From Bacteroidales bacterium (GTDB lineage: Bacteria > Bacteroidota > Bacteroidia > Bacteroidales > Tenuifilaceae), in the NCBI GenBank assembly GCA_013141385.1, contig JABFRB010000026.1, forward strand, positions 1 through 64,000: a stretch of 64,000 bases of DNA, in the 5' to 3' direction. A program made the position numbers and the translations under genes. The notes below the pieces were generated by a model, which saw nothing but the letters and a program-made list of their open reading frames with translations, was not told the origin of the DNA and did no database searches. Each line of letters starts with the position of its first letter. The first letter of the stretch is position 1. Of this stretch, positions 10,994 through 25,171 are shown piece by piece.

Positions 10994-11836
10994 CTATAAA
11001 GTTTCTTTAAGTTTAAGAATATACTGGCGCGAAACTGGGATTTGCTCTTGGAATCCTCTAATTGTTAACCAATATTTACTATAGCTATGATTGAGTCTTT
11101 CAATGTAATACTTGTTTACAATACAGATCCTGTGACAACGAACAAAATTTGAGTAGTGTTTTATTTGAAGATCGATGTTCTTTAAAGTATTTCGAATAAG
11201 CCTTTTCTTAAAACTATCATCCTTCTTGTATACAATTTCAACATAATTGTCGGCAGATTTAATACAAACAATCTCCACAATAGGAAGTACGAAATTTTCA
11301 GTACTATTTTCTGAAGTAAACTCTATGGATTTGTTCAAATCATCCTCTTGTTGTTTCTCTATTTGTTTTTGAATAATCTTTTTTTCTATAATAAGTGACT
11401 CATTTAATTGCCTCAGCTCCTTATTTACATCATATAATCTTAAAGCTACAGGAGGTGCAAGACAAACCAAAACAACTTTAGCAACAATATAAAATGATAT
11501 ATTAACAAACCCTACATACCTTAAATAGAAAGTGAAAGCAACAGAATTTAAAGCCAAAATAATAAAACTACTCAGGTAAGAAGGAAAAACTGTTTCATTT
11601 TCATTTTGGTTGTTCTTATAAATTAGCCATGGTAATATAACCTGTATTAAAGACATAAAGAAAAAGACAATTCCACCAAATCCAGCAACAAAGAGCAACC
11701 GATTGTTAAAGTCGAACCTATCTAAAGTAAAAGGCTGAAAAAAAAGAATAAATAAAAAGATACCAAAACTGATACTAAGAAAAAGCCTCAGTTTCTCGTT
11801 TAATAGCAAAATCAAATGGCTTAATCGATGATCCAC
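10994..11836 (-). CDS. Membrane-anchored LytTR transcriptional regulator
   Basis: 280 residues from a GTG start. Four hydrophobic segments occupy about residues 15-135, then a coiled linker (residues 137-165), then a C-terminal LytTR DNA-binding domain: VEIVCIKSADNYVEIVY, KRLIRNTLKNIDLQI, FVRCHRICIVN and PVSRQYILKLKE. It has no receiver domain, so it is the Bacteroidota-type membrane LytTR regulator that may sense the envelope directly. It is divergent from the AraC-type gene at 12039, 200 bases away. LytTR proteins bind paired direct repeats about 21 bp apart just upstream of promoters, so this protein is one candidate reader of the shared 37-bp motif found downstream. Confidence 0.82.
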   Translation of the reverse strand: MDHRLSHLILLLNEKLRLFLSISFGIFLFILFFQPFTLDRFDFNNRLLFVAGFGGIVFFFMSLIQVILPWLIYKNNQNENETVFPSYLSSFIILALNSVAFTFYLRYVGFVNISFYIVAKVVLVCLAPPVALRLYDVNKELRQLNESLIIEKKIIQKQIEKQQEDDLNKSIEFTSENSTENFVLPIVEIVCIKSADNYVEIVYKKDDSFKKRLIRNTLKNIDLQIKHYSNFVRCHRICIVNKYYIERLNHSYSKYWLTIRGFQEQIPVSRQYILKLKETL

Positions 11837-12038: not shown

Positions 12039-12599
12039 TTGAAAATATACATTCAAAATATGGTTTGCATCCGATGCAAGATGGTTGTGAAATCCGAACT
12101 GGAAAAACTTGGATTGCATTACACCTCTGTTGAATTGGGTGAAGTAGAAATTATCGAAGATATTTCATCCGATCAGTTTAAACAGTTGGGGTTAGCTCTA
12201 AAAAAAACTGGGTTAGAGCTGATGGATGATAAAAAGAGTATAATTGTTGAGAAAATAAAAACGATTATCATTGAATTGGTTCACTATTCAGATGATCAAA
12301 TCAAAATTAACCTTTCCGATTATCTAAGCGAAAAACTAAATTACAACTATACTTACCTTGCAAATCTGTTTTCCGAAGTTAAGGGAACTACAATTGAACA
12401 ATTCTACCTAGCACATAAAATTGAAAAGGTAAAAGAACTTCTGGTTTACGATGAACTCAATCTTACCGAAATTGCTTATAAACTGCATTACAGCAGTGTA
12501 GCCCATTTATCTAATCAATTCAAGAAAATAACTGGGCTTACCCCATCGCACTTCAAAAATCTTAAACAAAAAAGACGTAGCACATTGGGGAATGTGTGA
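12039..12599 (+). CDS. AraC-type regulator with HMA-like N-terminus, copy 1
   Basis: 186 residues, starting at TTG. The same TTG is conserved in the paralogue at 12884, which supports it. The N-terminus (1-70) looks like a heavy-metal-associated ferredoxin-like fold with MVCIRCKMVV carrying a C-x2-C pair. The C-terminal AraC/XylS helix-turn-helix pair begins at about 85: NYTYLANLFSEVKGTTIEQFYLAHKIEKVKELL, then LTEIAYKLHYSSVAHLSNQFKKITGLTPSHFK. The gene's last bases overlap the first copy of the shared regulatory motif (12594). Family members of this layout are Bacteroidota regulators of unclear signal; metal or redox sensing through the CxxC is plausible. Confidence 0.82.
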   Translation: MKIYIQNMVCIRCKMVVKSELEKLGLHYTSVELGEVEIIEDISSDQFKQLGLALKKTGLELMDDKKSIIVEKIKTIIIELVHYSDDQIKINLSDYLSEKLNYNYTYLANLFSEVKGTTIEQFYLAHKIEKVKELLVYDELNLTEIAYKLHYSSVAHLSNQFKKITGLTPSHFKNLKQKRRSTLGNV

Positions 12600-12630
12600 A
12601 TAATGTAACTTATTCCCTAAATAGTGTAAC
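12594..12630 (+). promoter_or_regulatory. Shared 37-bp motif, site a (upstream of lmo0937-like gene)
   Basis: Begins GTGTGAATAATGTAAC and ends AGTGTAAC. TAAC recurs at motif positions 13-16 and 34-37, 21 bp apart. Exactly 25 bases after its end comes TTTG of the -7 box TATCTTTG (12652-12659), 48 bases before the ATG at 12708. The motif overlaps the stop codon of the preceding AraC gene. Confidence 0.8.
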
Positions 12631-12707
12631 GGTATGCAAAATAGCAAGGACTATCTTTGTTACTGCTATATAACCTCTTAATTCTAAAATTTTAAATACT
12701 CACTATT

Positions 12708-12854
12708 ATGGGAAATCTACTTTACATCATCGCCCTATTCCTGATTATTGCATGGGCTATCGGATTTATTGGTTACAATGTAGGTAGCATTATTCATATT
12801 CTTCTAGTAATTGCAATAATTGCCATTTTACTCAGGATTATTAGAGGTAAATAA
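12708..12854 (+). CDS. lmo0937-family small membrane protein
   Basis: 48 residues in two hydrophobic helices: MGNLLYIIALFLIIAWAIGF, then a short loop with the conserved GYNVG, IIHILLVIAIIAILLRII and a basic RGK end. It matches the lmo0937 family of tiny membrane proteins, often stress-induced and frequent in Bacteroidota. It sits between the two AraC-type paralogues, directly under the shared motif and a TATCTTTG -7 box, and may be co-transcribed with the second AraC gene 29 bases downstream. Confidence 0.85.
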   Translation: MGNLLYIIALFLIIAWAIGFIGYNVGSIIHILLVIAIIAILLRIIRGK

Positions 12855-12883
12855 TCGAAATCTTTTAAAAAAGACAATCTATT

Positions 12884-13471
12884 TTGAAGATCTATATCAA
12901 ATACATGGTGAGCAATCGCTGTAAAATGGCGGTAAAGGAAGAACTAAAAAAGCTTGGACTGCACTTCATCGTTGTTGATTTAGGCGAAGTTGAAATTATG
13001 GAAACCATATCTTTAGAACAGCGAGAGTTACTGAAAATTGCTTTACACAGTTCTGGGCTAGAATTAATGGACGACAAGAGAGCTATTTTGATTGAGAAAA
13101 TTAAAAATGTAGTTGTTGAAATGGTTCATCATACAGATGAAATTATCAAAATAAATTTTTCCGATTATTTAAGCGAGAAACTAAATCACGATTATACTTA
13201 TCTGGCAAATCTGTTTTCAGAAGTACAGGGAACTACAATTGAGCAATTCGTTATTTCACATAAAATTGAACGGATAAAAGAATTTATCATTTACGATGAA
13301 TTAAACATTACAGAAATCGCTGAGAAGATGAATTACAGTAGCGTTGCGCATTTATCCAATCAATTTAAAAAAGCAACTGGGCTCTCACCCTCTCACTTCA
13401 AACAATTAAAAGACAAAAGGCGAAGTCCGATTGAAGATATTGGAAATGTGCCCGAAGTCAAACATGAATAG
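12884..13471 (+). CDS. AraC-type regulator with HMA-like N-terminus, copy 2
   Basis: 195 residues from TTG, a paralogue of the gene at 12039 along its whole length. The HMA-like N-terminus has lost the first Cys of the pair (MVSNRCKMAV), so metal binding through C-x2-C is no longer possible here. The AraC double helix-turn-helix is intact: YTYLANLFSEVQGTTIEQF and LNITEIAEKMNYSSVAHLSNQFKKATGL. It probably shares a transcript with lmo0937 and lies 52 bases before the hybrid kinase. Since the motif at 12594 precedes this unit, autoregulation is possible. Confidence 0.82.
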   Translation: MKIYIKYMVSNRCKMAVKEELKKLGLHFIVVDLGEVEIMETISLEQRELLKIALHSSGLELMDDKRAILIEKIKNVVVEMVHHTDEIIKINFSDYLSEKLNHDYTYLANLFSEVQGTTIEQFVISHKIERIKEFIIYDELNITEIAEKMNYSSVAHLSNQFKKATGLSPSHFKQLKDKRRSPIEDIGNVPEVKHE

Positions 13472-13523
13472 AGCGCTTAAATCAAATAAAACAATTTTTC
13501 CTACGGTGTTATAAAACAAAAAG

Positions 13524-16500
13524 ATGGAAAGAACGAAAACACATGAGTCCCAATACGCAAGCAGCTTAATAGAAGCCAGTTTGGATCCGTTGGTTACCAT
13601 TAGCCCCGAAGGAAAAATCACGGATATGAATCAGGCATTGGCTAACATTACGGGTATGACTCGTAAAGGACTCACCGGTACCGATTTCTTCGATTATTTC
13701 ACTGAACCACAAAAGGCACGTGAAGTATATCAGGAAGTATTCGCAAATGGATCGATAGCCAATTTACCACTTACCCTTCGCCATAAAAAGGGTAAACTGA
13801 CTGATGTACTATTCAATGGATCGGTTTATAAAGATGATAGTGGTAATGTGCTGGGTGCAGTTGTTGTGGCTAGAGATATTGCTGAGCAAAAATGGGCCAT
13901 TGAGTTACGAGTTGCCAACAAAGAACTTGCCTTTCAAAACGATGAGAAGGAAAAACGAGCTCAAGAGTTAAGCATTGCCAACAAAGAGCTTGCTTTTCAA
14001 AACGATGAGAAGGAAAAACGGGCTCAAGAGTTAAGCATTGCCAATAAAGAGCTTGCATTTCAAAACGATGAGAAGGAAAAACGGGCTCAAGAGTTAAGCA
14101 TTGCCAACAAAGAGCTTGCTTTTCAGAATGATGAAAAAGAAAAACGAGCCGCTGAGCTGATAATTGCCAATAAAGAGCTTGCTTTTCAGAACAATGAAAA
14201 AGAAAAACGAGCCGCTGAGTTAATTATAGCGAACAAAGAACTTGCATTTCAAAACGATGAAAAGGAAAAACGAGCCGCAGAGTTAATCATTGCGAACAAA
14301 GAGCTTGCATTTCAAAACGATGAGAAAGAGAAACGGGCACAAGAGTTAAGCATTGCCAATAAAGAACTTGCTTTTCAAAATGATGAGAAGGAAAAACGGG
14401 CACAAGAGTTAATCATTGCAAATAAAGAGCTTGCTTTTCAAAACAATGAGAAGGAAAAACGAGCGGCAGAGTTAATCATTGCCAACAAAGAGCTTGCTTT
14501 CCAAAACGTTGAAAAGGAAAAACGAGCGGCAGAATTAAGGATTGCTAACTATGCACGTAGCCTTATCGAGGCAAGTCTAGATCCATTAGTTACTATCAAT
14601 ACCAAAGGTAAAATCACCGATATGAATGAAGCGCTAGCTAGCATTACGGGGATTACACGAGAAGAACTTACTGGCACTGATTTCTTCGATTATTTCACCG
14701 AACCACAAAAGGCGCGTGAAGTCTATCAGGAAGTCTTCGCAAAAGGATCGGTTGCTGATTCTCCCCTTACACTTCGCCATAAGGATAACAAGCTGACTGA
14801 TGTGCTATTTAATGGATCCGTTTATAAAGATGATGGTGGTAATGTGCTGGGAGTGGTAATTGTAGCTAGGGATGTTACTGACCAAAAAAGAGTTGCAACC
14901 GAATTGGTAGAATCAAAAGTGTTTGCTGAGTTGACAACAGTAATTGCTGAAGAAGCAAAGAGCAAAGCTGAAAGTGCCACACAAATAGCGGAAGATGCGG
15001 TTAAAGCAAAACAACAGTTCCTTTCAAATATGAGTCATGAAATTCGCACTCCAATGAATGCGATTATCGGATTTACAAAGGTGTTACTAAAAACAGATTT
15101 GACTGCAAAGCAGAAAGAGTATTTACAAGCAATAAAATTGAGTGGCGATGCATTAATCGTACTCATCAACGATATCCTAGATTTGGCAAAAGTCGACTCA
15201 GGAAAAATGACATTTGAGCAGACCCCATTCAAAATGGCGTTATCCATATCAGCAATGCTGCACTTATTTGAAACAAAAATTCAGGAAAAGAATTTAGAAC
15301 TGGTTAAAGAATATGATAGCAATATTCCAGAAGTATTGGTTGGTGACCCTGTACGTTTACACCAAATAATATTAAACCTTGTGAGTAATGCTGTAAAGTT
15401 TACAACAAAAGGTAAGATTACGGTAAGTGTCCATTTGCTGAAGGAAGATAAAAAGAAAGCAACCATTGAATTTGCTGTTAAAGATACTGGAATAGGAATA
15501 GCAGAAAATAAAATAGGGAATATTTTTGAAAACTTTCAGCAGGCCTCTAGTAACACCTCAAGGTTGTACGGGGGAACTGGATTAGGACTTGCCATTGTTA
15601 AACAGCTGGTTGAACCGCAGGGTGGTAAAATAACCGTAAAAAGCAAAATTGACGAGGGCTCTACTTTTAGTTTTGTGCTTAACTTTCTAAAAACCGATGC
15701 TAATGCAGAATTAGAAGCAGGAATAGAAGAGTTGAATACTGAAATTAAAAACATAAAAGTATTAGTCGTTGAAGACATTGCCCTCAACCAATTATTAATG
15801 AAAACATTGTTGGACGATTTTGGATTTGAACGTGATATTGCCGACAATGGGAAAATAGCCATCGAGAAGTTACAAGCTAAATCGTACGATATTATTTTGA
15901 TGGATTTGCAGATGCCTATAATGAATGGTTTTGAAGCGACTGAATACATTCGCAATAATATGAATTCAAAAATTCCAATCATTGCATTAACTGCCGATGT
16001 AACAACTGTGGATTTAGCAAAATGTAAAGCAGTGGGTATGAACGATTACATAGCAAAACCGGTTGACGAAAGACTATTATACAGCAAAATAGTTGGACTG
16101 GTTAAGAAGCCATCTCAAGTAAAATATAATGGATCTGAAGGAGATGTAAATATTGAAATTAAAAAATCGAAATGCATCAATTTGGATTATCTAGTCAAAC
16201 GTACAAAAGCTAATCCTGAATTGATGATGGAAATGATTTCGCTTTATTTGGAACAAACCCCACCGTTAGTAAAGGCGATGAAACAAGGATGGCTTGATGA
16301 AGATATGAATTCGTTGCACGCCGCAGTTCATAAGATGATTCCCTCTTTTTCAATTATGGGAATTAGCACAGATTTTGAAAACATGGCAAAAAAGGTTCAG
16401 GAATTTTCTATCACACAACAAGAGACAAAAGTTAACCTAATTGATAATCAGGGAGTTTTCGAGATGGTAATGCAGCTTGAAAATATATGCAATCAAGCAT

Positions 16501-16550
16501 GTAGCGAATTAGAAGAAGAGTATAACAGAATTAAAAGTAATAGGTCATGA
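13524..16550 (+). CDS. Hybrid histidine kinase, PAS - 10x21-aa coiled coil - PAS - HisKA - HATPase - REC - HPt
   Basis: 1008 residues, soluble (no membrane segment). PAS1 spans about 10-125; ten 21-residue repeats (ANKELAFQNDEKEKR-A[AQ]EL..I) occupy 131-340; PAS2 (about 341-460) is nearly the same sequence as PAS1; HisKA has H505 in SNMSHEIRTPMNA; HATPase shows HQIILNLVSNAVKFT, DTGIGI and GTGLGLAIVKQL; the receiver phospho-acceptor is D794 in IILMDLQMP; a C-terminal HPt has H936 in LHAAVHKM. It is therefore a complete phosphorelay kinase. It overlaps the next gene by four bases (ATGA), so a response regulator is its likely partner. The repeats are three heptads each, as in signalling helices. 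Its decayed duplicate lies at 17962. Confidence 0.92.
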   Translation: MERTKTHESQYASSLIEASLDPLVTISPEGKITDMNQALANITGMTRKGLTGTDFFDYFTEPQKAREVYQEVFANGSIANLPLTLRHKKGKLTDVLFNGSVYKDDSGNVLGAVVVARDIAEQKWAIELRVANKELAFQNDEKEKRAQELSIANKELAFQNDEKEKRAQELSIANKELAFQNDEKEKRAQELSIANKELAFQNDEKEKRAAELIIANKELAFQNNEKEKRAAELIIANKELAFQNDEKEKRAAELIIANKELAFQNDEKEKRAQELSIANKELAFQNDEKEKRAQELIIANKELAFQNNEKEKRAAELIIANKELAFQNVEKEKRAAELRIANYARSLIEASLDPLVTINTKGKITDMNEALASITGITREELTGTDFFDYFTEPQKAREVYQEVFAKGSVADSPLTLRHKDNKLTDVLFNGSVYKDDGGNVLGVVIVARDVTDQKRVATELVESKVFAELTTVIAEEAKSKAESATQIAEDAVKAKQQFLSNMSHEIRTPMNAIIGFTKVLLKTDLTAKQKEYLQAIKLSGDALIVLINDILDLAKVDSGKMTFEQTPFKMALSISAMLHLFETKIQEKNLELVKEYDSNIPEVLVGDPVRLHQIILNLVSNAVKFTTKGKITVSVHLLKEDKKKATIEFAVKDTGIGIAENKIGNIFENFQQASSNTSRLYGGTGLGLAIVKQLVEPQGGKITVKSKIDEGSTFSFVLNFLKTDANAELEAGIEELNTEIKNIKVLVVEDIALNQLLMKTLLDDFGFERDIADNGKIAIEKLQAKSYDIILMDLQMPIMNGFEATEYIRNNMNSKIPIIALTADVTTVDLAKCKAVGMNDYIAKPVDERLLYSKIVGLVKKPSQVKYNGSEGDVNIEIKKSKCINLDYLVKRTKANPELMMEMISLYLEQTPPLVKAMKQGWLDEDMNSLHAAVHKMIPSFSIMGISTDFENMAKKVQEFSITQQETKVNLIDNQGVFEMVMQLENICNQACSELEEEYNRIKSNRS
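13914..14543 (+). repeat. Ten in-frame 63-bp tandem repeats within kinase gene
   Basis: Ten units of 63 bases code for ANKELAFQNDEKEKR-A[AQ]EL[SI]I, with two main subtypes (AQELSI and AAELII) interleaved, indicating internal duplication by recombination. There are no indels, so the heptad phase is preserved throughout. Copy number is likely variable between strains. Confidence 0.92.
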
Positions 16551-16981
16551 AAAACGAAAATAAAATAAAGCTTTTCCTGGTTGATGATGATGCTTTATTT
16601 TTAAAATCATTAGAAATTGATTTTCTTGAGCATGCAGACTTTGCGATTGAAACATTTGCTACAGGTGAACTTTGTATGGCGAGTTTAAAACACAACCCTG
16701 ATGTAATCATTCTAGATTATTTCCTTGATAGTATTGATAAAAATGCCATGAATGGATTGGAAACATTGGATAAAATAAAATCTTACAATCCTGATATTCC
16801 TGTTGTAATGCTATCCTCGCAGGATAAAATTGATGTAGCAATAAACTGTATGCACCATAGAGCTTTTGATTACGTAGTAAAAAGTGAAACGGCTTTCGTG
16901 CGCTTGCAAAAAATTATAACTACCATTTTCCGTTACAAAAAAATGGAGAAGGAATTAAGTTGGTATATGGATAGGATGTAA
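16547..16981 (+). CDS. Stand-alone response regulator (receiver plus short tail), copy 1
   Basis: 144 residues. Receiver domain: acidic LFLVDDDALF, phospho-acceptor Asp in VIILDYFLDS, switch residues VVMLSSQD and Lys in YVVKSE. There is no DNA-binding domain; the C-terminal 20 residues (IFRYKKMEKELSWYMDRM) are helical. It is translationally coupled to the hybrid kinase by ATGA and probably receives phosphate from its HPt domain, then acts through protein contacts. A paralogue is at 18729. A strong terminator follows at 17040. Confidence 0.88.
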   Translation: MKNENKIKLFLVDDDALFLKSLEIDFLEHADFAIETFATGELCMASLKHNPDVIILDYFLDSIDKNAMNGLETLDKIKSYNPDIPVVMLSSQDKIDVAINCMHHRAFDYVVKSETAFVRLQKIITTIFRYKKMEKELSWYMDRM

Positions 16982-17039
16982 TAGAACAAGAACCATTAAG
17001 GTTTTAGATAATAAAGGTTTAGTATTTTAGTGCATGAAA

Positions 17040-17070
17040 GAAGAGCATTGCTAATCGAGCAATGCTCTTC
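17040..17070 (+). terminator. Rho-independent terminator of the kinase operon
   Basis: GAAGAGCATTGCT and AGCAATGCTCTTC form a perfect stem with loop AATCG, followed by CATTTTAAT. It ends the kinase-regulator unit 58 bases after the stop and insulates the next motif-driven promoter. Confidence 0.85.
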
Positions 17071-17104
17071 CATTTTAATATAACCCTATTTACATAAAGA
17101 ACAT

Positions 17105-17141
17105 GTGTGAATTATATAACTCATTTACAAAGTTGTGTAAC
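17105..17141 (+). promoter_or_regulatory. Shared 37-bp motif, site b (upstream of DUF3494 gene 1)
   Basis: Begins GTGTGAATTATATAAC and ends AAAGTTGTGTAAC. The TAAC direct repeats are 21 bp apart. TTTG of the -7 region (CACCTTTG) begins 25 bases after the motif, and the ATG is 40 bases beyond (17211). Confidence 0.85.
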
Positions 17142-17210
17142 ACTTCATTTTTAATTAGTTATCACCTTTGTAATGCTGTGAGAATTCGTTCGCAGCTTAA
17201 AATTAAAAAA

Positions 17211-17948
17211 ATGAAAACGATAAAACTATTAACAGCCCTTGCGATGGTATCTGTTGTTTTAACTACAGGATGTGAAAAGGATGAAACTAATCCTGCAAAT
17301 CAAATTGAAATTCCAGTGCAAACCACTGTGCAGACAGCCATTCCTCTTGCTGATGCTTCCAACATAGCAATCCTTTCTGGTTCAGCAGTCACTAACACTG
17401 GCGCTACAGTAATAACTGGTGATATTGGTCTAAGTCCAGGCACATCGGTAGGCGGATTCCCTCCAGGAATTTTAAATGGAACTTTACATATCAATGATGC
17501 AATAGCCACTCAGGCGAAACTTGATTTAACGGCTGCTTACAACGATGCAGCAGGACGAACATGTACCGATATAGTAACACTGTCGGGTAATATTGGTGGG
17601 CTAACCCTTACTCCTGGTCTATATAAGTCAACCTCATCGCTTGCAATATCATCTGGCGATCTCACTTTTGATGCAATGGGAAATGCAGATGCTGTTTTCA
17701 TTATACAAATTGCGTCGAGCCTTACCACCACATCGGGTCGCAAAGTTTTCCTAAGCGGTGGTGCGCTAGCTTCCAATATATTTTGGCAGGTTGGAAGCTC
17801 CGCAACGTTTGGAACTACATCGGTGTTTAAAGGAACGGTTATGGCAATGCAATCCATCACCTTCAATACCGGAGCAACACTTGATGGCAGAGCATTAGCA
17901 AGAATAGGTGGAATTACTATGGCAGGTAATACGATTGTAAAACAATAA
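17211..17948 (+). CDS. DUF3494 (ice-binding-like) lipoprotein 1
   Basis: 245 residues from the ATG at 17211, chosen because it starts a lipoprotein signal (MKTIKLLTALAMVSVVLTTGC, Cys 21); the frame is open further upstream through the promoter motif. The rest is one DUF3494 domain: 'ITGDIGLSPGT', 'AYNDAAGRTCTDIVTLSGNIGGLTLTPGLY', 'NADAVFIIQIASSL' and 'NIFWQVGSSATFGTTSVFKG'. In structurally studied members this is a beta-solenoid that binds ice or serves as an adhesin tip domain. The lipid anchor places it on an envelope surface. It belongs to the motif regulon and is one of three paralogues here. Confidence 0.88.
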   Translation: MKTIKLLTALAMVSVVLTTGCEKDETNPANQIEIPVQTTVQTAIPLADASNIAILSGSAVTNTGATVITGDIGLSPGTSVGGFPPGILNGTLHINDAIATQAKLDLTAAYNDAAGRTCTDIVTLSGNIGGLTLTPGLYKSTSSLAISSGDLTFDAMGNADAVFIIQIASSLTTTSGRKVFLSGGALASNIFWQVGSSATFGTTSVFKGTVMAMQSITFNTGATLDGRALARIGGITMAGNTIVKQ

Positions 17949-17961
17949 GTATCTGCTTAAC

Positions 17962-18333
17962 TCTTAATTGGTGACCCCAGTTCGTTTGTACTGACTCTTT
18001 CATAATCTTACGAGTAATGCAGAAAAGTTTATAACAAAATGTAAAACTGCAGTTAGCGTCTTTTTACTGAGTGAAAATAAAGAGAAAATAACTATTTAAT
18101 TTTCGGTTACGGATACAGAAATTGGAATACCGCGAAATGATTTTGAATACTTATACAGGCATCTAGCGGTTCTTTAAGATTGTATTAGGAGAGAGGATTT
18201 GTACTTGTCATTGCTAAACAATCAGTAATAAGTATTAATTTAAAAACTAAAGTTAATGAGGACTCTGCATATAACTTCATAATGAGTATTCAGAAAACAA
18301 TCACTCTAGAAGATGTAGAAGCAAGTAAAAAAA
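17962..18333 (+). pseudogene. Decayed duplicate of the hybrid kinase ATPase domain
   Basis: DNA in this stretch aligns to the HATPase-coding part of the kinase at 13524: TTGGTGACCC, CTTACGAGTAATGC, AAAGTTTA(T)AACAAAA, GGATTTGTACTTGTCATTGC against GGATTAGGACTTGCCATTGT, and GAGGACTCTGC against GAGGGCTCTAC. The translation is broken by several stops and frameshifts. The intact receiver at 18334 continues in the order found in the full kinase. It is a relic of a tandem duplication whose receiver survived. Confidence 0.8.
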
Positions 18334-18732
18334 ATGGATATGGAAATTAAAGACATAAAAATATTGGTGGTTGAAGACGTTGCAGTCAATCAATTACTGA
18401 TGAAAACGCTTTTGTATGGTTTCGGGTTTGAATGCGATATGGCCGCTAACGGAAAACTGGCCATTGAAATGTTACAATGCAAATCTTACGATATTATTTT
18501 GATGGATATACAGATGCCAGTAATGAATGGGTTTGAAGCGACAGAATACATTCGTACAACAATGAATTCTAAAATTCCCATTATCGCATTAACTGCTGAT
18601 GTAATCTCTGTGGATTTAGCAATATGCAAAGCTTCTGGAATGAATGATTACATACCTAAGCCCATTGACAAACAATTATTGTTAAGAAGTATTGTTGAAC
18701 TGGTAAAGGAAGCCTCATTTTATAACTCATGA
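18334..18732 (+). CDS. Receiver-domain protein, surviving C-terminus of duplicated kinase
   Basis: 132 residues, a single receiver domain almost identical in layout to the receiver of the hybrid kinase: KILVVEDVAVNQLLMKTLL, phospho-acceptor Asp in IILMDIQMPVMNGFEATEYIR, 'IPIIALTAD' and the invariant Lys in YIPKPID. The start ATG lies where the kinase encodes the linker before its receiver. It ends before any HPt domain and overlaps the next gene by four bases. Its acceptor site and Lys are intact, so it may still accept phosphate from the neighbouring kinase; it could equally be on its way to decay. Confidence 0.82.
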   Translation: MDMEIKDIKILVVEDVAVNQLLMKTLLYGFGFECDMAANGKLAIEMLQCKSYDIILMDIQMPVMNGFEATEYIRTTMNSKIPIIALTADVISVDLAICKASGMNDYIPKPIDKQLLLRSIVELVKEASFYNS

Positions 18733-19154
18733 AAAACAATAATAAAATTCAACTTTTCCTGGTTGATGATGATGCTCTATTTTTAAAATTATTAGAAATT
18801 GATTTTCTCACGCATACTAATTTTACCATTAAAACATTTGCAACTGGTGAACTTTGTATGGCAAATCTAACACACAACCCAGATGTAATCATTTTAGATT
18901 ATTATCTTGATAGTATTGATAAAAACGCCATGAACGGATTAAAAACACTGGATAAAATAAATTCTTTCAATCCAGATATTTCCGTTGTAATGCTATCCTC
19001 TCAGAATAAAATTGATGTAGCTATTAACTGTATACATCATAGAGCTTTTGATTACTTAGTGAAAAGCCAAACCGATTTCTTAAACTTGAAAAAAATCATA
19101 ACAACCATTTTCCATTACAAAAAAATGGGGAAGGAATTGAGTTGGTCTATATAA
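18729..19154 (+). CDS. Stand-alone response regulator, copy 2
   Basis: 141 residues, a paralogue of the regulator at 16547 over its full length: LFLVDDDALFLK, VIILDYYLDSIDKNAMNGL, VVMLSSQ, YLVKSQ. It has receiver fold only, with a short helical tail. It overlaps the upstream receiver gene by ATGA, just as copy 1 overlaps the intact kinase, confirming that the whole kinase-regulator unit was duplicated. A hairpin follows at 19271. Confidence 0.88.
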   Translation: MKNNNKIQLFLVDDDALFLKLLEIDFLTHTNFTIKTFATGELCMANLTHNPDVIILDYYLDSIDKNAMNGLKTLDKINSFNPDISVVMLSSQNKIDVAINCIHHRAFDYLVKSQTDFLNLKKIITTIFHYKKMGKELSWSI

Positions 19155-19270
19155 GGCTTGTGAGATTTCGCTCCTATTATGAACACTTATTGACGATTGA
19201 ATAAATGTAAAAGTTGATAGGAATTACCATACCATAACTAAACAGTAAACATGTGCAAGATAATAGAAGA

Positions 19271-19297
19271 GCGCTGCTTATTAGCTGCGCATTTTTT
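19271..19297 (+). terminator. Rho-independent terminator
   Basis: GCGCTGC and GCTGCGC form a short imperfect stem with loop TTATTA, followed by ATTTTTTATT. It lies about 115 bases after the second response regulator. Confidence 0.65.
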
Positions 19298-19330
19298 ATT
19301 CTATATAAATCAATATCACAAAAAGAACAT

Positions 19331-19367
19331 GTGTGAATTTCATAACTTATTGTCAAAGTTATGTAAC
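19331..19367 (+). promoter_or_regulatory. Shared 37-bp motif, site c (upstream of Ig-DUF3494 gene)
   Basis: Begins GTGTGAATTTCATAAC and ends AAAGTTATGTAAC. TTTG of CACCTTTG starts 25 bases later (19393), and the ATG is at 19429. Confidence 0.85.
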
Positions 19368-19428
19368 ACATACTCCTACCATGATGCTCACCTTTGCATT
19401 ATAATAATTCATTAATAAATAAACTAAA

Positions 19429-21138
19429 ATGAAACTAAAAAATGTACTACCAATCGTAGCAATGCTATTGGTTGTTTTCTTTTCCGGCTGTAAAAAAGAG
19501 GATGAAAATCCCGGTGTAAATCCTACTGTGACTTCTACAGTTCCTGTAAACCAAGCCACAAGTATTTCTATTAATAGTATGGTTTCAGCTAACTTTAGTG
19601 TAGCTATGAATCCATCTACTATGACATTAGCAAACTTTACTTTACAGCATGGAACTGAGACTGTATCAGGAGTAGTAGAATATACAGGTAAAACAACAAC
19701 TTTTACCCCATCAGAGAATCTAGTATCAAATACAATCTATACTGCTACTATTACTACTGGGGCTAAAGACATCGCGGGAAATTACATTGAGAAAAACTAT
19801 GTCTGGACATTTACTACAGGTGCAATCTTGGATATAACTTTACCCACAGTGACCTTGACAGAGCCACTTAACAACGCTACAGGTGTAGCACTTAATAAGG
19901 CTATTGCAATAACTTTTAGTGAGGCAATGGATCCTTTGACAATTAACTCCAATACATTTACCTTAAACCAAGGTACAAATGCTATTTCAGGTTTGGTATC
20001 TTATTCTGGAACTACTGCAACATTTACTCCTACAAATACCTTAGTAGCTGGAACTACATATACAGCTACAATAACTACTGGTGCAAAAGACTTAGCAGGT
20101 AATGCGCTTGCAGTCAACACTGTATTGAGTTTTACAACAATTGCAAATTCGGATATCACTTTACCTACAGTAACTTTGACAAGTCCTCTTGACAACGCCA
20201 CTAATGTTGAACGCAACAAAGTGATTGCAATAACTTTCAGTGAAACAATGGAGCCTTTGACTATTAACTCCAATACATTTACCTTATATCAAGGCACAAA
20301 TGCTATTTCAGGTTCGATAGTTTACTCTGGAATCACTGCAACATTTACTCCTACAAACGCCTTAGCAGCAAGCAGCATTTATACTGCTACAATAACTACT
20401 GGTGCAAAAGATTTGGCTGGGAATGCACTTGCAATCAACACCGTATTGAGTTTTACAACAAATAGTACCATTTCAAATTTAGCAGTGGTAGAACTTGGAT
20501 CTGCAGGTAATTACGTGATTCTTGCAAAAACAGCAATCACCAACATCTCAACTTCAGCTATTACAGGAGACTTAGGACTTAGCCCAGCCGCTACATCATA
20601 TATCACAGGTTTATCCTTAACAGATGCAACAGGTTATGCAATATCTGCACAGGTAACTGGTAGTATATTTGCAGCCGATATGGCAGATCCTACTCCTATT
20701 AACTTAACCACTGCAGTTAACAACATGATTACAGCTTACAACGATGCAGCTGGTCGTTCAAATCCAGATTTCTTGGAGTTGAGCACAGGTAATATTGGTG
20801 GAAAAACGCTAACAGCAGGTCTTTATAAATGGACGAATACCGTTACTTTACCTTCTGATGTTACCATTTCAGGTGGCGCAAACGATGTATGGATCTTCCA
20901 GATTTCAGGCGATCTTTTGATGAGTAACGCAGTGAATGTTACCCTTATCGGTGGTGCTCAAGCTAAAAACATTTTTTGGCAGGTAGCTGGTCAGGCAACC
21001 TTTGGAACAACCTCTCACTTTGAAGGTGTTATATTGTCGATGACAGGTATTACTTTCCAAACTGGCGCAACTTTGAATGGTAGAGCATTAGCACAAACGG
21101 CTGTCGCTCTTGACGGTAATGCTATAACAAAACCATAA
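19429..21138 (+). CDS. Lipoprotein with three Ig-like (Big_5) domains and C-terminal DUF3494
   Basis: 569 residues. Lipobox at VVFFSGC (Cys 23). Three consecutive Big_5-type domains of about 105 residues follow (roughly 30-135, 140-240 and 245-345), each with VPVNQATSISINS-like entry, 'SEAMDPLTINSNTFTLNQGTNAISG' and a closing 'YTATITTGAKDLAGN...FTT'. The DUF3494 beta-solenoid occupies about 350-569 ('NYVILAKTAITNISTSAITGDLGLSP', 'NIFWQVAGQATFGTTSHFEG'). Ig domains act as a stalk, so the protein resembles a surface-displayed ice-binding or adhesive tip. The second and third Ig domains are near duplicates. It is driven by the shared motif. Confidence 0.9.
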   Translation: MKLKNVLPIVAMLLVVFFSGCKKEDENPGVNPTVTSTVPVNQATSISINSMVSANFSVAMNPSTMTLANFTLQHGTETVSGVVEYTGKTTTFTPSENLVSNTIYTATITTGAKDIAGNYIEKNYVWTFTTGAILDITLPTVTLTEPLNNATGVALNKAIAITFSEAMDPLTINSNTFTLNQGTNAISGLVSYSGTTATFTPTNTLVAGTTYTATITTGAKDLAGNALAVNTVLSFTTIANSDITLPTVTLTSPLDNATNVERNKVIAITFSETMEPLTINSNTFTLYQGTNAISGSIVYSGITATFTPTNALAASSIYTATITTGAKDLAGNALAINTVLSFTTNSTISNLAVVELGSAGNYVILAKTAITNISTSAITGDLGLSPAATSYITGLSLTDATGYAISAQVTGSIFAADMADPTPINLTTAVNNMITAYNDAAGRSNPDFLELSTGNIGGKTLTAGLYKWTNTVTLPSDVTISGGANDVWIFQISGDLLMSNAVNVTLIGGAQAKNIFWQVAGQATFGTTSHFEGVILSMTGITFQTGATLNGRALAQTAVALDGNAITKP

Positions 21139-21160
21139 TACACCAAAAAAACATAATTCA

Positions 21161-21194
21161 AAAGAGGTGATCTCACGGGATCACCTCTTTTTTT
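21161..21194 (+). terminator. Rho-independent terminator
   Basis: AAAGAGGTGATC and GATCACCTCTTT form a perfect 12-bp stem followed by a T run, 23 bases after the Ig-DUF3494 stop. Confidence 0.9.
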
Positions 21195-21219
21195 AATTTT
21201 TAATTGATGATTCTACAAT

Positions 21220-21256
21220 ATGTGAACTACATAACTTATATACAATATTGTGTAAT
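21220..21256 (+). promoter_or_regulatory. Shared 37-bp motif, site d (upstream of DUF3494 gene 3)
   Basis: Begins ATGTGAACTACATAAC and ends ATATTGTGTAAT. TTTG of GCATCTTTG begins 25 bases later (21282), and the ATG is at 21319. Confidence 0.82.
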
Positions 21257-21318
21257 ACTCGCTCCCGCTAAGGTTCGCATCTTTGTACTATTGAATTACA
21301 CATATAAAAAAAACTAAA

Positions 21319-22113
21319 ATGAAACAGAACAAAATGTACCCAATCGTAGCCATGCTATTGGTTGGACTAATGACTGGATGTGAAAAAGGTATGGATACCA
21401 ATTTATCCTCCAAGATGTCTTCCGGAGAAAAGACAATTGCTTATGAGCCACAACAAAGTGCATTGGGTGGAGTATATCTAGGCGTTGCAGGCGATTTTGC
21501 GATTCTTTCAAAATCAGGAATCACTAACGTATATAAATCATCGATTACTGGGGATGTTGGTTCAAGTCCAATCACTGGTGCTGCTGTACTGGTAACTTGT
21601 GCCGAAGTGGTAGGTAATATATACACAGTTGATGCTGCCGGGCCACTGCCTTGCAGGGTAACTAATGCAACCAGATTAGGTATCGCAGTGCTTGATATGC
21701 AAGCCGCCTACACTGATGCTGCCGGACGTATTAACCCTAACTTCTTGAATTTAGGTGCTGGGAATATTGGTGGTTTAACCCTTACCCCTGGCCTTTACAA
21801 ATGGACTAGTGCGCTGATCATCCCAACGGATGTTACTATTTCGGGTGGACCTAACGATGTTTTTATATTCCAGGTTGCTGGAACCATGATTATGAGTTCT
21901 GCTGTTAGAGTTACCTTAAGTGGTGGTGTACAAGCAAAGAACATTTTCTGGGTAACAGCAGGTGCTGTAACCTTCGGTACTACTAGCCATTTTGAAGGAA
22001 ACATTTTAGGACAGACTGGTATTAACATGCAGACTGGTGCCACTATAAACGGCAGGATGCTTGCTCAAACAGCAGTAACCCTTCAAATGAATACGGTTAA
22101 TATTCCACAGTAA
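21319..22113 (+). CDS. DUF3494 (ice-binding-like) lipoprotein 3
   Basis: 264 residues. Lipobox at VGLMTGC (Cys 21). After a 30-residue linker the DUF3494 domain runs to the end: 'SGITNVYKSSITGDVGSSPITG', 'AYTDAAGRINPNFLNLGAGNIGGLTLTPGLYKW', 'VTISGGPNDVFIFQVAGTM' and 'NIFWVTAGAVTFGTTSHFEGNI'. It is closer to the DUF3494 part of the 19429 gene than to the 17211 protein. It has its own motif-driven promoter and terminator, so the three paralogues form separate but co-regulated units. Confidence 0.88.
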   Translation: MKQNKMYPIVAMLLVGLMTGCEKGMDTNLSSKMSSGEKTIAYEPQQSALGGVYLGVAGDFAILSKSGITNVYKSSITGDVGSSPITGAAVLVTCAEVVGNIYTVDAAGPLPCRVTNATRLGIAVLDMQAAYTDAAGRINPNFLNLGAGNIGGLTLTPGLYKWTSALIIPTDVTISGGPNDVFIFQVAGTMIMSSAVRVTLSGGVQAKNIFWVTAGAVTFGTTSHFEGNILGQTGINMQTGATINGRMLAQTAVTLQMNTVNIPQ

Positions 22114-22134
22114 ACTAAAGGAATATAAAATTCA

Positions 22135-22172
22135 AAAGAGGTTGTCTAAATCAGTTTTTAGACAACCTCTTT
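22135..22172 (+). terminator. Rho-independent terminator
   Basis: AAAGAGGTTGTCTAAA and TTTAGACAACCTCTTT form a 16-bp stem, 22 bases after the DUF3494 stop. It resembles the terminator at 51721 on the other strand, a recurrent design in this genome. Confidence 0.9.
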
Positions 22173-22226
22173 ACTTATTATACTGGCATTATTTTTCAAT
22201 TTAATACAATCAAAAATCATAAGTGT

Positions 22227-22661
22227 ATGAGAATAACGATTAAACTTCTATATCTAATGATGCTATCCATTTTAGCCTCATTATTAATTGTAAATTGTAA
22301 ATCAGTAAATACAGACTCTAATAACAATGCTTCATCAAGCGCTTCCAATGAAGGTTTTAATAAGTTTTATAAGAGATTTCATGCAGATAGCACACTTCAA
22401 ATGTCAAGAATAAAATTTCCACTCAATGGAATATCTGCTGACGGAAATGGAGAGATAAAATGGAATAAAAAAAATTGGAAATTTATGAAGATAAAAATTT
22501 ACGACGTTGATAAAAAACAATTTAAGGTATATTTCAAAAAAACTAATAAACCATTTACTCAAAAACTCTGGATTGAAAATTCAGGATTTTATCCAAAATG
22601 TAGATTTAAATTAACTGATAAAAGGTGGTATATTTTGTATTTCTTAGATCAAAAGGTATAA
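22227..22661 (+). CDS. Small lipoprotein of unknown function
   Basis: 144 residues. Lipobox ASLLIVNC (Cys 24) after a hydrophobic signal. The mature part has a Ser/Asn-rich linker, then a basic, Trp/Phe-containing globular region ('GEIKWNKKNWKFMKIKIYDVDKKQFKVYFKK', 'KLWIENSGFYPKCRFKL'). No family is recognised. There is no copy of the shared motif directly upstream. It ends about 110 bases before motif site e. Confidence 0.6.
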   Translation: MRITIKLLYLMMLSILASLLIVNCKSVNTDSNNNASSSASNEGFNKFYKRFHADSTLQMSRIKFPLNGISADGNGEIKWNKKNWKFMKIKIYDVDKKQFKVYFKKTNKPFTQKLWIENSGFYPKCRFKLTDKRWYILYFLDQKV

Positions 22662-22775
22662 AGTGAATATCGACTAGTGCCAACAAAAATTAAAGATTCC
22701 TCACCTGCAATTGCACAAGCCGTTGTTTATCATTTAAAATGACAATTTCCCTTGCATCAGTGTGTGAACCGAAAT

Positions 22776-22812
22776 GTGTGAATCATATAAATCAGTTAAT
22801 GAATTGTGTAAC
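22776..22812 (+). promoter_or_regulatory. Shared 37-bp motif, site e (upstream of beta-barrel gene)
   Basis: Begins GTGTGAATCATATAAA and ends GAATTGTGTAAC. At the expected 25-base distance stands TTTA in TACATTTA (22834-22841), one base from the TTTG consensus. The ATG is further away than at other sites (22941). A partial extra GTGTGAA copy sits just before it. Confidence 0.7.
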
Positions 22813-22940
22813 TACAATACATTATAACCCTAGTACATTTACATAACAAAAAATTTATTGGGTGGAGATTAGAACCCACTTAAAAAAACAGAGCGAAACT
22901 GAAAAGCTATACGAGTAAGAAGTACACAAAAACTACACCG

Positions 22941-23411
22941 ATGAAAAAACTAATTTTCACATTTTTAATTGCATTATGTTTGATTTCACCCGGCTATGCA
23001 CAGGATTACAAAACAGGAATAGGGGTAAGAGGTGGATACTTCAATGGCCTAACTGTTAAACATTTCATTGGGACAAAAGCAGCCCTAGAAGGAATTCTTG
23101 ACAGCAGATGGAGAGGATTCCAATTTACTGGTCTTTATGAAATTCATAACCAAGCATTCAAAACAGAACGTTTAAATTGGTATTTTGGCTTTGGAGGTCA
23201 TATTGGCTTTTGGAATGGAGATAATACAAAATGGGGAACACCAGGAACAAACTATACCATTATAGGTTTAGATGGAATTCTGGGTTTAGAATACAATTTC
23301 AGGGAAATTCCTTTAAACATTGGTCTCGACTGGAAACCCGCTTTTAATATTACTGGCTATTCCGGTTTCTGGGGTGATGGTGGAGCTATCTCAATAAGAT
23401 ATATCTTCTAA
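22941..23411 (+). CDS. Small outer-membrane beta-barrel-like protein
   Basis: 156 residues. The signal peptide ends at PGYAQ (residue 20). The remainder alternates aromatic and glycine-rich strands (GIGVRGGYFNGLTVKHF, FTGLYEIHN, WYFGFGGHIGFWN, PAFNITGYSGFWGDGGAISI) and ends in RYIF, with a terminal Phe as usual for outer-membrane barrels. It is probably an eight-strand barrel. It is under motif site e, making it a member of the envelope-related regulon. Confidence 0.72.
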   Translation: MKKLIFTFLIALCLISPGYAQDYKTGIGVRGGYFNGLTVKHFIGTKAALEGILDSRWRGFQFTGLYEIHNQAFKTERLNWYFGFGGHIGFWNGDNTKWGTPGTNYTIIGLDGILGLEYNFREIPLNIGLDWKPAFNITGYSGFWGDGGAISIRYIF

Positions 23412-23512
23412 GAATTGTATAAACTCACATTATAGAAATCGTATATGGTAAAACATATATTCTTCAGCATTCATGTTGCGATTATATTTTACCTTACTCA
23501 AAAATAAAAACA

Positions 23513-24421
23513 ATGAATAAAATTATATTAGCCCTTACTGTAAATGGAATTATAGTTGGCATGCTGTTGAAGAAATACATATTAGTTCTTATCCTTAGTA
23601 TATTTGGATTGAGCGTCTTGGCAAACCCCAAACTAGCATCAAAACAGCAAATAGGAATGTTTATTAACTCCAAAACTTGTGTTGTACTCGAAAGTGGCAT
23701 AAATCCTTACAATCTGTTCATACAAGATGCTGTTAATAAATACTGGAAATCTACTGAATTTGAATTTATCGATCAACAGGAGTTTGAAAAACGTCGATTT
23801 GATTCAAAGTACTCATTTCTGGTGCTCATGAAAAATATTTTCGATAAAGATCCTGGCGGGGTAAGCTATAATTTCATAAGCCTTGTTCTAGGAGATACGT
23901 CAAAAAACATTACCAATATGCCTGAACTATGCTGTATTCCCATATCCTATACAAATGACAATACAAATAACTTCGGATATGTAATACCCTCTATTGTCAA
24001 ATTCATGCAAAAACATGTAAAAACTCTTGAGACAAAACGCTTCTTAATTTCTCTTAGAGGGTTAAAATACTATAACGGTTCACCATGTTTTCAGTACACT
24101 CTTTTGCTCATGGACGAAAAAATGATGGCAGCAGATGTCAATTCAATTGAGAAAATCAAGTCAGTTTACCCCTATTTTGTAATACTTTCTAATTCTACTA
24201 AAATTGAGGCTGACTTAGCCACAAACCCTTCAAATACAATGTTTAATTTCCACGTAGGCCCTACTCAAAATACTGGAACAGGAAAATGCTTCGAAATGAT
24301 ATTTGATACTGAAGGTAATCTTTATTACTATAACTCTCGAAAGATTACTAATGATAACGAAAATGGTTTTAATCTGAAAGATTTCAAAAATATTAAGAGA
24401 GCAAATTTATTCGGTTTGTAA
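23513..24421 (+). CDS. Exported protein of unknown function
   Basis: 302 residues as called. An in-frame ATG at 23561 would start directly at a signal-peptide-like MLLKKYILVLILSIFGLSVLAN and may be the true start. The mature part has no recognised domain; it contains 'INPYNLFIQDAVNKYWKSTEFEFI', suggesting the nucleotide-binding-like 'get stressed' module seen in Bacteroidota unknowns, and a C-terminal 'GKCFEMIFDTEGNLYYYNSRKI'. It lies between two motif-controlled genes but has no motif of its own; read-through from the barrel gene 100 bases upstream is possible. Confidence 0.6.
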   Translation: MNKIILALTVNGIIVGMLLKKYILVLILSIFGLSVLANPKLASKQQIGMFINSKTCVVLESGINPYNLFIQDAVNKYWKSTEFEFIDQQEFEKRRFDSKYSFLVLMKNIFDKDPGGVSYNFISLVLGDTSKNITNMPELCCIPISYTNDNTNNFGYVIPSIVKFMQKHVKTLETKRFLISLRGLKYYNGSPCFQYTLLLMDEKMMAADVNSIEKIKSVYPYFVILSNSTKIEADLATNPSNTMFNFHVGPTQNTGTGKCFEMIFDTEGNLYYYNSRKITNDNENGFNLKDFKNIKRANLFGL

Positions 24422-24465
24422 TCATTTTTTAAATTCCCCTTATACCTTTTTGCAATAATAAAAAT

Positions 24466-24502
24466 GTGGGAATGATGTAACTTATTTACAAAGTTATGTA
24501 AC
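24466..24502 (+). promoter_or_regulatory. Shared 37-bp motif, site f (upstream of CsbD-like gene)
   Basis: Begins GTGGGAATGATGTAAC and ends AAAGTTATGTAAC. TTTG of ACTTTTG starts 25 bases later (24528), and the ATG is at 24564. Confidence 0.83.
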
Positions 24503-24563
24503 AATTATGCTCAAGTGATGATTTACTTTTGAATTTCAAACTACTCACTTAATTAATTGATTA

Positions 24564-24761
24564 ATGGATAAATATTTAAGACCCTCACGTAACGACCAAA
24601 AGTGGAGCGAACAAAAAGAAAAACTCCTTAATCAATTCAAAAGTTTAACCGATAAAGATTTGCTTTTTGAAGCGGGAAGAAAGTTTGAAATGATACTAAG
24701 AGTCAGCGATAAACTCGGAATACCTGAACCAGAAATGAAGCGCATATTTCAAGAACTTTAA
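24564..24761 (+). CDS. CsbD-like general stress protein
   Basis: 65 residues. The pattern W-x3-K-x-KL...F-x2-LTDKDLLFEAGRKFEMILRVSDKLG...EMKRIFQEL follows the CsbD family (W..xKGKL....LTDDDL...G....L.+.Q.+.G), in the form common in Bacteroidota. These small helical proteins accumulate under general stress. The gene is directly under motif site f and overlaps the following cupin gene (TAATG), so both are in one transcript. Confidence 0.75.
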   Translation: MDKYLRPSRNDQKWSEQKEKLLNQFKSLTDKDLLFEAGRKFEMILRVSDKLGIPEPEMKRIFQEL

Positions 24762-25171
24762 TGGTTTCAAAACAAATATGTTACATAAACAATATGTGTC
24801 CTCATAATAATCCTGAATATCGGTCAAGAAATTTGGATAATGCCGAAGTAGAAAAATCAAAAACTTTTACAAATATCAACCTAATTGGGTATGAACCTAA
24901 TTCTGTTGTTTGTAGAATAATAATGAAAAAGCCGGCGGGAAATATATCCCTATTGTCTTTTAATACTGATAAAGAGGTTAAAGAAAAAATTTCTCCATTC
25001 GATACGTTTATTCAAATTATTGATGGCAAAGCCGAAATCATTATTGATGGTAAATCTAACTTACTTGAAACTGGGCAGTCAATTATAATACCAGCACACT
25101 CAACAAATTCTCTAAAAGCAAACGAATGCTTTAAGATGATTTCAACCACAATAAAAAGTGGATATGAATAA
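24761..25171 (+). CDS. Cupin-domain protein
   Basis: 136 residues; translation may start at 24761 (overlapping the CsbD stop) or at the ATG encoding MCPHNN (24794). The cupin barrel is seen in 'AGNISLLSFNTDKEVKEKISPFDTFIQIIDGKAEIIIDGKSNLLETGQSIIIPAHSTNSLKANE', with the second motif G-x5-PAHS carrying one His; the first-motif metal ligands are partly missing, so catalysis is doubtful. It is probably a small ligand- or metal-binding protein co-expressed with the CsbD-like stress protein. Confidence 0.75.
   Translation: MVSKQICYINNMCPHNNPEYRSRNLDNAEVEKSKTFTNINLIGYEPNSVVCRIIMKKPAGNISLLSFNTDKEVKEKISPFDTFIQIIDGKAEIIIDGKSNLLETGQSIIIPAHSTNSLKANECFKMISTTIKSGYE

Follow-up and report, generated by a model that had tools for sequence, protein, structure and literature searches.

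A 37-bp direct-repeat site at a fixed distance from the -7 box in Bacteroidota, probably the operator of small HMA-AraC regulators of stress and envelope genes

A 37-bp motif precedes six promoters in a 64,000-nucleotide stretch of a Bacteroidales genome (family Tenuifilaceae; assembly GCA_013141385.1, contig JABFRB010000026.1, positions 1 to 64,000), which is referred to here, at its full length, as the window. The motif is, with good probability, the operator of small regulators joining an HMA-like domain to an AraC-type DNA-binding domain, represented in the window by AraC1 and AraC2, which would activate a stress and envelope regulon of Bacteroidota. The sites, their spacing, the repeat within them, their association with AraC genes and the gene content behind them have been computed directly. 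The same site was found to head regulons elsewhere in Bacteroidota, which goes beyond the original prediction made from the window.

All six 37-mers lie on the + strand, at 12594..12630, 17105..17141, 19331..19367, 21220..21256, 22776..22812 and 24466..24502. Direct reading of the window confirmed the number, the positions and the distance to the promoter that had been predicted: exactly 25 nt past each site stands TTTG, or TTTA in the case of the fifth. The corresponding -7 boxes, also on the + strand, occupy 12652..12659 (TATCTTTG), 17163..17170, 19389..19396 and 21278..21285 (all three ending in TTTG), 22834..22841 (TACATTTA, with the TTTA) and 24524..24531 (TACTTTTG, ending in TTTG), and TAnn precedes the TTTG or TTTA in three of the six. 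Gap-free alignment of the sites gives 16 invariant columns out of 37, with a mean column identity of 86%. A degenerate pattern allowing up to three mismatches matched six times in the window and never in 100 dinucleotide shuffles; a similar pattern run across the 5.55-Mb genome returned the same six only, and its reversed control none.

A sequence-only model built from the six sites (R1) recovered them in a genome search at E values of 1e-9 to 7e-7, the next match standing at 0.28. A second model (R2), refined on relatives by using 150 R1 matches in other genomes, added a seventh site in the own genome (G000:C34:80945-80979, E 2e-6), with TTTA at 25 nt; the open reading frame behind it resembles, judged by eye, a UbiA-type prenyltransferase. 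Other patterns were of little use: the strict consensus was too narrow, matching one of the six sites (17105), a pattern based on the gap between the TAAC elements gave no matches, and a 13-base half-motif with up to two mismatches did no better than chance (5 found against 7.06 expected).

The distribution of the site beyond this genome was followed in contigs retrieved with AraC2. This search yielded 329 relatives, the best 80 of which were taken as loci (Bacteroidota and Ignavibacteria by title, 1.30 Mb in total). A matrix derived from the six window sites alone found 199 sites scoring 18 bits or more in them, compared with a mean of 0.2 (largest 1) for ten column-shuffled matrices and none for the reversed matrix; R1 gave 204 matches at E up to 1. 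Among the 198 sites with enough downstream sequence, TTTG lies at an offset of 25 in 127 and of 24 in 18, every other offset accounting for at most seven, against a background of 0.0051 per position. Mean pairwise identity is 0.71 for the site and 0.30 for the spacer; since the sequence of the latter is unconserved, its length is the conserved property. Moreover, in 20 further regions from other genomes and the own one, most of them picked because a model had matched there, TTT stands at 25 in 28 of 29 matches of at least 14 bits; regions L113-L115 had no match at 14 bits. In three relatives, the regions fetched contained 28, 22 and 15 sites scoring 20 bits or more; 60 of these 65 have TTT at 24 or 25.

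The presence of six copies within 12 kb of one strand, half of them before paralogous ice-binding genes, could also be expected if the motif were part of a repeated or mobile element, or had been copied along with duplicated genes, and had no regulatory role; the occurrence of AraC relatives on plasmids would agree with such an origin. This explanation is very improbable. It does not account for a fixed distance to the -7 box across an unconserved spacer, nor for target genes that are unrelated to one another, and in one relative (G270) the sites are scattered over many contigs. Furthermore, just 23 of the 199 sites lie mostly inside open reading frames of at least 100 amino acids, which cover 81% of the bases under a generous mask counting both strands; equal frequency inside genes, the outcome named beforehand as contrary to a regulatory motif, was therefore not seen. 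Both the repeat-element and the gene-duplication readings were rejected because of spacer variability and target diversity. A regulon limited to the cluster in the window, which the R1 search of the own genome had suggested, was dropped as well, because relatives have wider ones, with 26 sites in G270, 16 in G267 and 14 in G251.

The internal structure of the site agrees with its being an operator of the AraC/XylS type. When offsets of 4-30 are compared, the best direct-repeat offset is 21 (score 4.43; the next, 2.75, is at 9), and the repeat unit is approximately A-R-T-n-R-T-G-T-A-A-C. The logo of 159 sites with TTT at 25 reads AATGTGTGAATnATRYAACTTATTTnCAAARTTRTGTAACACTTT, followed by about 17 weakly conserved bases and CAcCTTTG. 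At the first position of the -7 box, where the consensus has T, these sites have T in 22% and C in 56%; the A is kept in 98%. A study on F. psychrophilum places the TAnnTTTG box at -12 to -5 (PMC9723704); on that numbering the site would span about -70 to -34 and abut the -33 region. The original prediction had set an activator site over the -33 region: an activator-type site at a fixed promoter distance is indeed indicated, and it borders this region instead of covering it. AraC/XylS operators are direct repeats of about 21 bp that lie beside the -35/-33 region, and the site conforms to this (offset 21, 25 nt to TTTG).

The same position near -34 might allow a bound protein to obstruct the polymerase, and the regulator would then be a repressor bound beside the -33 region. 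This is improbable, given the weak -7 boxes, which suit what is expected of activated promoters. Direct repeats of the AraC family that abut the -35 region are typically activator sites, which also argues for activation.

As regards the protein that reads the site, the nearby AraC genes are the likely regulators, judging from co-occurrence and adjacency. In a phylum sample of 247 genomes, 118 have a relative of AraC2 (E 1e-20) and 35 have the motif (E 0.01), the overlap being 33 genomes (Fisher 4e-10). With the motif threshold at E 0.001, 17 of 18 motif genomes have the AraC relative (2e-5), and at 1e-4, 13 of 14 (5e-4); these counts are lower bounds, because filtering in the phylum motif search was stricter and 27 candidates were scored for each genome. 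All six phylum genomes with an AraC protein of at least 74% identity contain the motif. In a family sample of 27 genomes, the motif occurs in 11 of 11 genomes with AraC and in one of the 16 others (G253), 15 having neither at the thresholds applied (9e-7). The Fisher values overstate independence, because the sampled species are related.

The arrangement of the genes, a further result not anticipated in the original prediction, points in the same direction, since many AraC genes bear a site at their own 5' or 3' end. Among 117 distinct AraC genes (alignments starting after query residue 6 or ending before residue 170 having been dropped), a site of at least 20 bits lies up to 150 nt upstream of 50 of the 96 SxxC-type genes, 46 of them at 47-59 nt, and of none of the 21 CxxC-type genes. 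At the 3' end, a site is found in 11 of 21 CxxC-type and 15 of 96 SxxC-type genes, 15 of them in identical register, these counts being inflated because several regions were fetched precisely for a site adjoining an AraC gene. In the stretch 12580-12605 of the window, GTGTGA, the first six bases of site 1, is at the same time the final codon and stop of AraC1. In genus g124, four genomes contain 2 to 14 sites and just one AraC relative each, so that one protein can probably serve the motif.

A LytTR regulator, encoded at 10994, had been considered together with AraC proteins as suited to repeats two helical turns apart. In its favour, LytTR proteins bind direct repeats whose units are separated by about two turns, with which a 21-bp period would agree, and the gene adjoins AraC1. 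Nevertheless, reading of the motif by this or another LytTR protein is most improbable: a relative of the 10994 protein (E 1e-5) occurs in none of the 80 loci containing AraC and the motif, and in the family sample one (E 1e-20) was found only in the own genome (G000) and, remotely, in the motif-less G258, leaving 11 of 12 motif genomes without it. The 10994 protein was discarded as the regulator after this search for a cognate in the 80 loci and family genomes, a survey which covered this LytTR protein only. The AraC half of the proposal is retained, with the 21-bp repeat, the co-occurrence and the adjacency in its favour.

Besides the relatedness of the sampled species and the inflated 3' counts, several results weigh against AraC proteins of this kind as the general readers of the site. 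The motif was absent at E 0.01 from 85 of the 118 AraC genomes, including G150, G151, G061 and G143, whose proteins have 61-67% identity; many of these AraC proteins therefore probably read other sites or serve other functions. At 18 bits, 12 of the 80 loci had no site, and these loci are centred on AraC, which favours sites found near it. In 17 of the 35 motif genomes of the phylum sample the only matches have E values of 0.001-0.01, with 2 or 3 of 247 expected by chance. Two of the loci used in training R2 (L014 and L044) apparently come from the genomes G272 and G270, as they have the same coordinates, and these genomes were partly matched by construction. In the three relatives, TTT is missing from both 24 and 25 in five of the 65 sites, among them the sites that precede KaiC-like and one CheB gene. 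In G192 there are two strong sites, both near contig ends, and no AraC relative at E 1e-5; G253 has 6 sites and an AraC match of a generic kind only; G011 and G016 have good sites, with AraC relatives that are all remote (E about 1e-28 and 1e-29); in G269, where an AraC fragment lies at a contig edge, the motif was not found; and G088, a further exception, has a single motif match, at E 0.0099. The two contigs of G192 (L123 and L124) end shortly past their sites and have a short stretch in common, TATCAAAAAGTATGATA, as at the boundary of an insertion element.

Both candidate regulators are encoded on the + strand. AraC1 (12039..12599) consists of an N-terminal CxxC domain and an AraC-type helix-turn-helix domain, and AraC2 (12884..13471), possibly autoregulated, of an HMA-like SxxC domain followed by the same type of domain; PF12833 recognises the latter with E values of 8.8e-18 and 1e-14. 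An AlphaFold2 model of AraC2, calculated with 28 relatives, has a mean pLDDT of 85.5 (about 90 in residues 1-60) and comprises a betaalphabetabetaalphabeta domain (residues 2-61) in which the final strand is very short, then a long helix, then an AraC DNA-binding domain. Foldseek matched the model with AraC-family DNA-binding domains (best E 8.6e-6), and its N-terminal part with TTHA1718, Atx1, GolB and the Cu(I) metallochaperone 2qif (probability about 1, E 0.06-0.15). As modelled, these regulators are fusions of a copper-chaperone-like (HMA) fold with an AraC DNA-binding domain, the ferredoxin-like fold of HMA domains being present in the AraC2 model; no Pfam HMA match was obtained for AraC1 or AraC2 at E 0.01. 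The metal site of HMA domains is MxCxxC. Among sequences whose alignment starts at residue 4 or before, all 87 AraC2-like proteins have MSxxC at this place; of the AraC1-like ones, 18 have MCxxC and 7 MSxxC.

AraC relatives also occur in 30 plasmid records, all with less than 60% identity, and four were looked at closely. Three of them, from Mucilaginibacter robiniae, Hymenobacter sp. and Runella slithyformis (L156, L157 and L158; 43-49% identity), are of the same size as the regulators described here and share the CxxC-type N-terminus and the AraC annotation. They differ in having kept the CxxC itself and in their surroundings, which include a copper ATPase, multicopper oxidase, DUF305 or RND efflux genes: the Mucilaginibacter and Hymenobacter proteins are encoded among copper-resistance genes, and the one from Runella slithyformis beside multicopper oxidase and RND efflux genes. 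No good site was found in the roughly 10 kb covered around the three (best 7.2 bits). The plasmid of the fourth, an SxxC protein from Runella rosea (58.6%), carries an ice-binding gene preceded by two sites, which score 34 and 25 bits and have TTTG and TTTA at offset 25.

From the sequence evidence we infer that these proteins bind the site, that they activate rather than repress, that a signal reaches them and that the regulon has a role in general stress. At about -70 to -34, each half-site of the direct repeat with its 21-bp period would be occupied by one of two protomers, and the bound AraC protein would activate transcription by sigma-A RNA polymerase from weak -7 boxes, which commonly read CAnCTTTG and not TAnnTTTG, in a manner modelled on AraC at its promoter-proximal sites. 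AraC2 may switch on its own operon, establishing positive feedback, and in some AraC1-type genes the stop codon appears to lie within the operator of the gene that follows. The predicted regulon includes ice-binding adhesins, CsbD-like, DUF5670, OmpA, Usp, Dps-like, YtxH and Mla proteins, and in relatives it would also take in an ECF sigma factor and CheB/CheR proteins.

In the window, all the putative targets lie on the + strand. Site 1 stands upstream of a gene for a membrane protein of the DUF5670 (lmo0937) family (12708..12854) and of AraC2; DUF5670 is present in 10 of the 27 family genomes, nine of the ten having the motif. Sites 2, 3 and 4 precede, respectively, an ice-binding-like gene (DUF3494, PF11999; 17214..17948), a gene for an Ig-like (Big_5) and ice-binding protein (19429..21138) and another ice-binding-like gene (21319..22113). 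Behind site 5 lies a presumed outer-membrane beta-barrel gene (22941..23411), for which Pfam gave no match and a single NCBIfam barrel family matched at E 8e-4, falling far short of the cut-off of that family. Site 6 is followed by genes for a small CsbD-like protein (24564..24761) and a cupin-like protein (24761..25171; Cupin_2 at E 2.7e-4, below the curated cut-off). The former has no Pfam match of its own, and similar proteins are found in 14 of the 80 loci, one of which (L033:11646-11831) matches CsbD weakly.

In the 80 loci, an open reading frame was placed behind 195 of the 199 sites by a simple rule, some of whose picks are probably wrong (e.g. L038:505-609 and L091:9467-9670). TTT stands at 24 or 25 in 185 of these cases, 48 are AraC genes, and the 141 non-AraC targets with TTT were clustered by BLAST, each cluster being named from one or two members. 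The clusters include ice-binding-like proteins (25, in 15 loci), CsbD-like proteins (14, in 14 loci), an OmpA cluster (10, in 8), receivers (6, in 5), MlaE permeases (6, in 6) and smaller classes. A Pfam scan of 20 representatives identified OmpA, Response_reg, MlaE, DUF6600, DUF6629, ferritin/Dps-like, DUF2383, Usp (2), AI-2E, bestrophin-like, CheB/CheR and GH130 domains, together with a weak CsbD match (5.6e-5, below its cut-off), and left 6 of the 20 without a match. The same scan of 20 targets from the three relatives added MlaD, two ECF sigma factors, KaiC (behind a site without the box), YtxH, a glycine-zipper OmpA, DUF748 and a hybrid kinase, with 3 of 20 lacking a match. The ECF sigma genes (L137:5752, 34 bits with TTTG; L148:1386, 21 bits with TTTA) suggest a regulatory cascade.

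AraC proteins might read the sites in the service of a narrower regulon, concerned with the surface or with cold and adhesion to ice, or with a metal response, and not with general stress. This carries real weight, short of an even chance: ice-binding-like proteins are the largest target class, the N-terminal fold resembles copper chaperones, and the three CxxC plasmid relatives lie beside copper-resistance or efflux genes. Other evidence speaks against so restricted a role, since the targets also comprise CsbD-like, Usp, Dps-like, YtxH, OmpA, Mla and ECF sigma proteins, no metal transporters were found among 40 scanned targets of relatives, and SxxC stands in place of CxxC in all 87 AraC2-like sequences that could be read from their start. 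The stress and surface regulon suggested by the original prediction finds support in this gene content. A more far-reaching proposal, which we put forward tentatively, is that the HMA-AraC protein is the master activator of a general stress response of Bacteroidota, with kinase-receiver input, in place of alternative sigma factors; a protein resembling a copper sensor, its metal site partly lost, would have been recruited for this purpose, with positive feedback and an ECF sigma factor downstream.

Candidates for the input are encoded immediately after AraC2, a conserved association likewise not foreseen. A hybrid histidine kinase (13524..16550, +; PAS, PAS, HisKA, HATPase and receiver domains) is followed by a single-domain response regulator (16547..16981, +). 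A relative of the kinase begins less than 1 kb past AraC2 in 75 of the 80 loci, three of the other five having fewer than 750 bases left, and a single-domain receiver directly follows the kinase in most of the 64 loci in which both ends could be placed. No Pfam DNA-binding domain was found in either protein. The kinase and the single-domain receiver may feed the AraC proteins, and would probably provide the signal.

Several known systems share features with this one. E. coli AraC at araI1-I2 has the same type of DNA-binding domain, direct half-sites about 21 bp apart beside the -35/-33 region and a likely activating function, and its DNA-binding domain (2k9s) was among the Foldseek matches of the AraC2 model (E 1.3e-3). 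The N-terminal domain of the E. coli protein is a sugar-binding cupin, whereas here it is HMA-like; moreover, the targets are stress and envelope genes, on several contigs in some relatives, and the promoter would be that of Bacteroidota sigma-A. General stress regulons under SigB, RpoS or PhyR-EcfG resemble the present one in their CsbD, Usp, Dps, YtxH and envelope targets. Their regulators are alternative sigma factors; here an activator is presumed to act at promoters of the sigma-A type, and an ECF sigma gene is an apparent target in relatives.

The closest published parallel found is that of the AraC-type hybrid two-component systems of Bacteroides. These combine sensor, kinase and receiver with an AraC-type helix-turn-helix domain in a single polypeptide and regulate polysaccharide loci; their predicted motifs are direct repeats of, for example, 16 + 5 and 12 + 9 bp, both with a 21-bp period, and in another case of 14 + 6 bp (PMC3878776). 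In the system considered here the AraC protein is small, the kinase and receiver are separate, and the targets are of the stress and envelope type. No description of such an AraC-activated regulon was found in the open-licence literature searched, among the matches listed, and we read it as undescribed, as had been predicted.

If this interpretation is correct, environmental Bacteroidota would gain a defined regulon of stress and surface genes, recognisable by its promoter signature. The site with its 25-nt spacing would then allow the members, often annotated as unknown (DUF5670, CsbD-like proteins, ice-binding adhesins), to be predicted in any genome. The interpretation would also suggest how the architecture of a metal sensor may have been redirected to another signal. 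Finally, it would offer a test bed for activation at -33/-7 promoters, whose activator geometry seems to have been little studied.

Some minor features of the cluster and its surroundings complete the description. Two more receiver-domain proteins are encoded in it (18334..18732 and 18729..19154, both +), with no site directly in front. In G271, a genome of the same genus with one motif match in its entire sequence, AraC1 (95.7% identical) is followed by this one site and then by the cupin gene (L130:3876-5129); the genes that lie between sites 1 and 6 of the window are absent there, as if inserted or lost between two copies of the operator. The kinase of the window, for its part, contains ten near-identical 21-residue repeats before its second PAS domain (residues ~130-345), in which NKELAFQN recurs from residue 132 to residue 321 in steps of 21.

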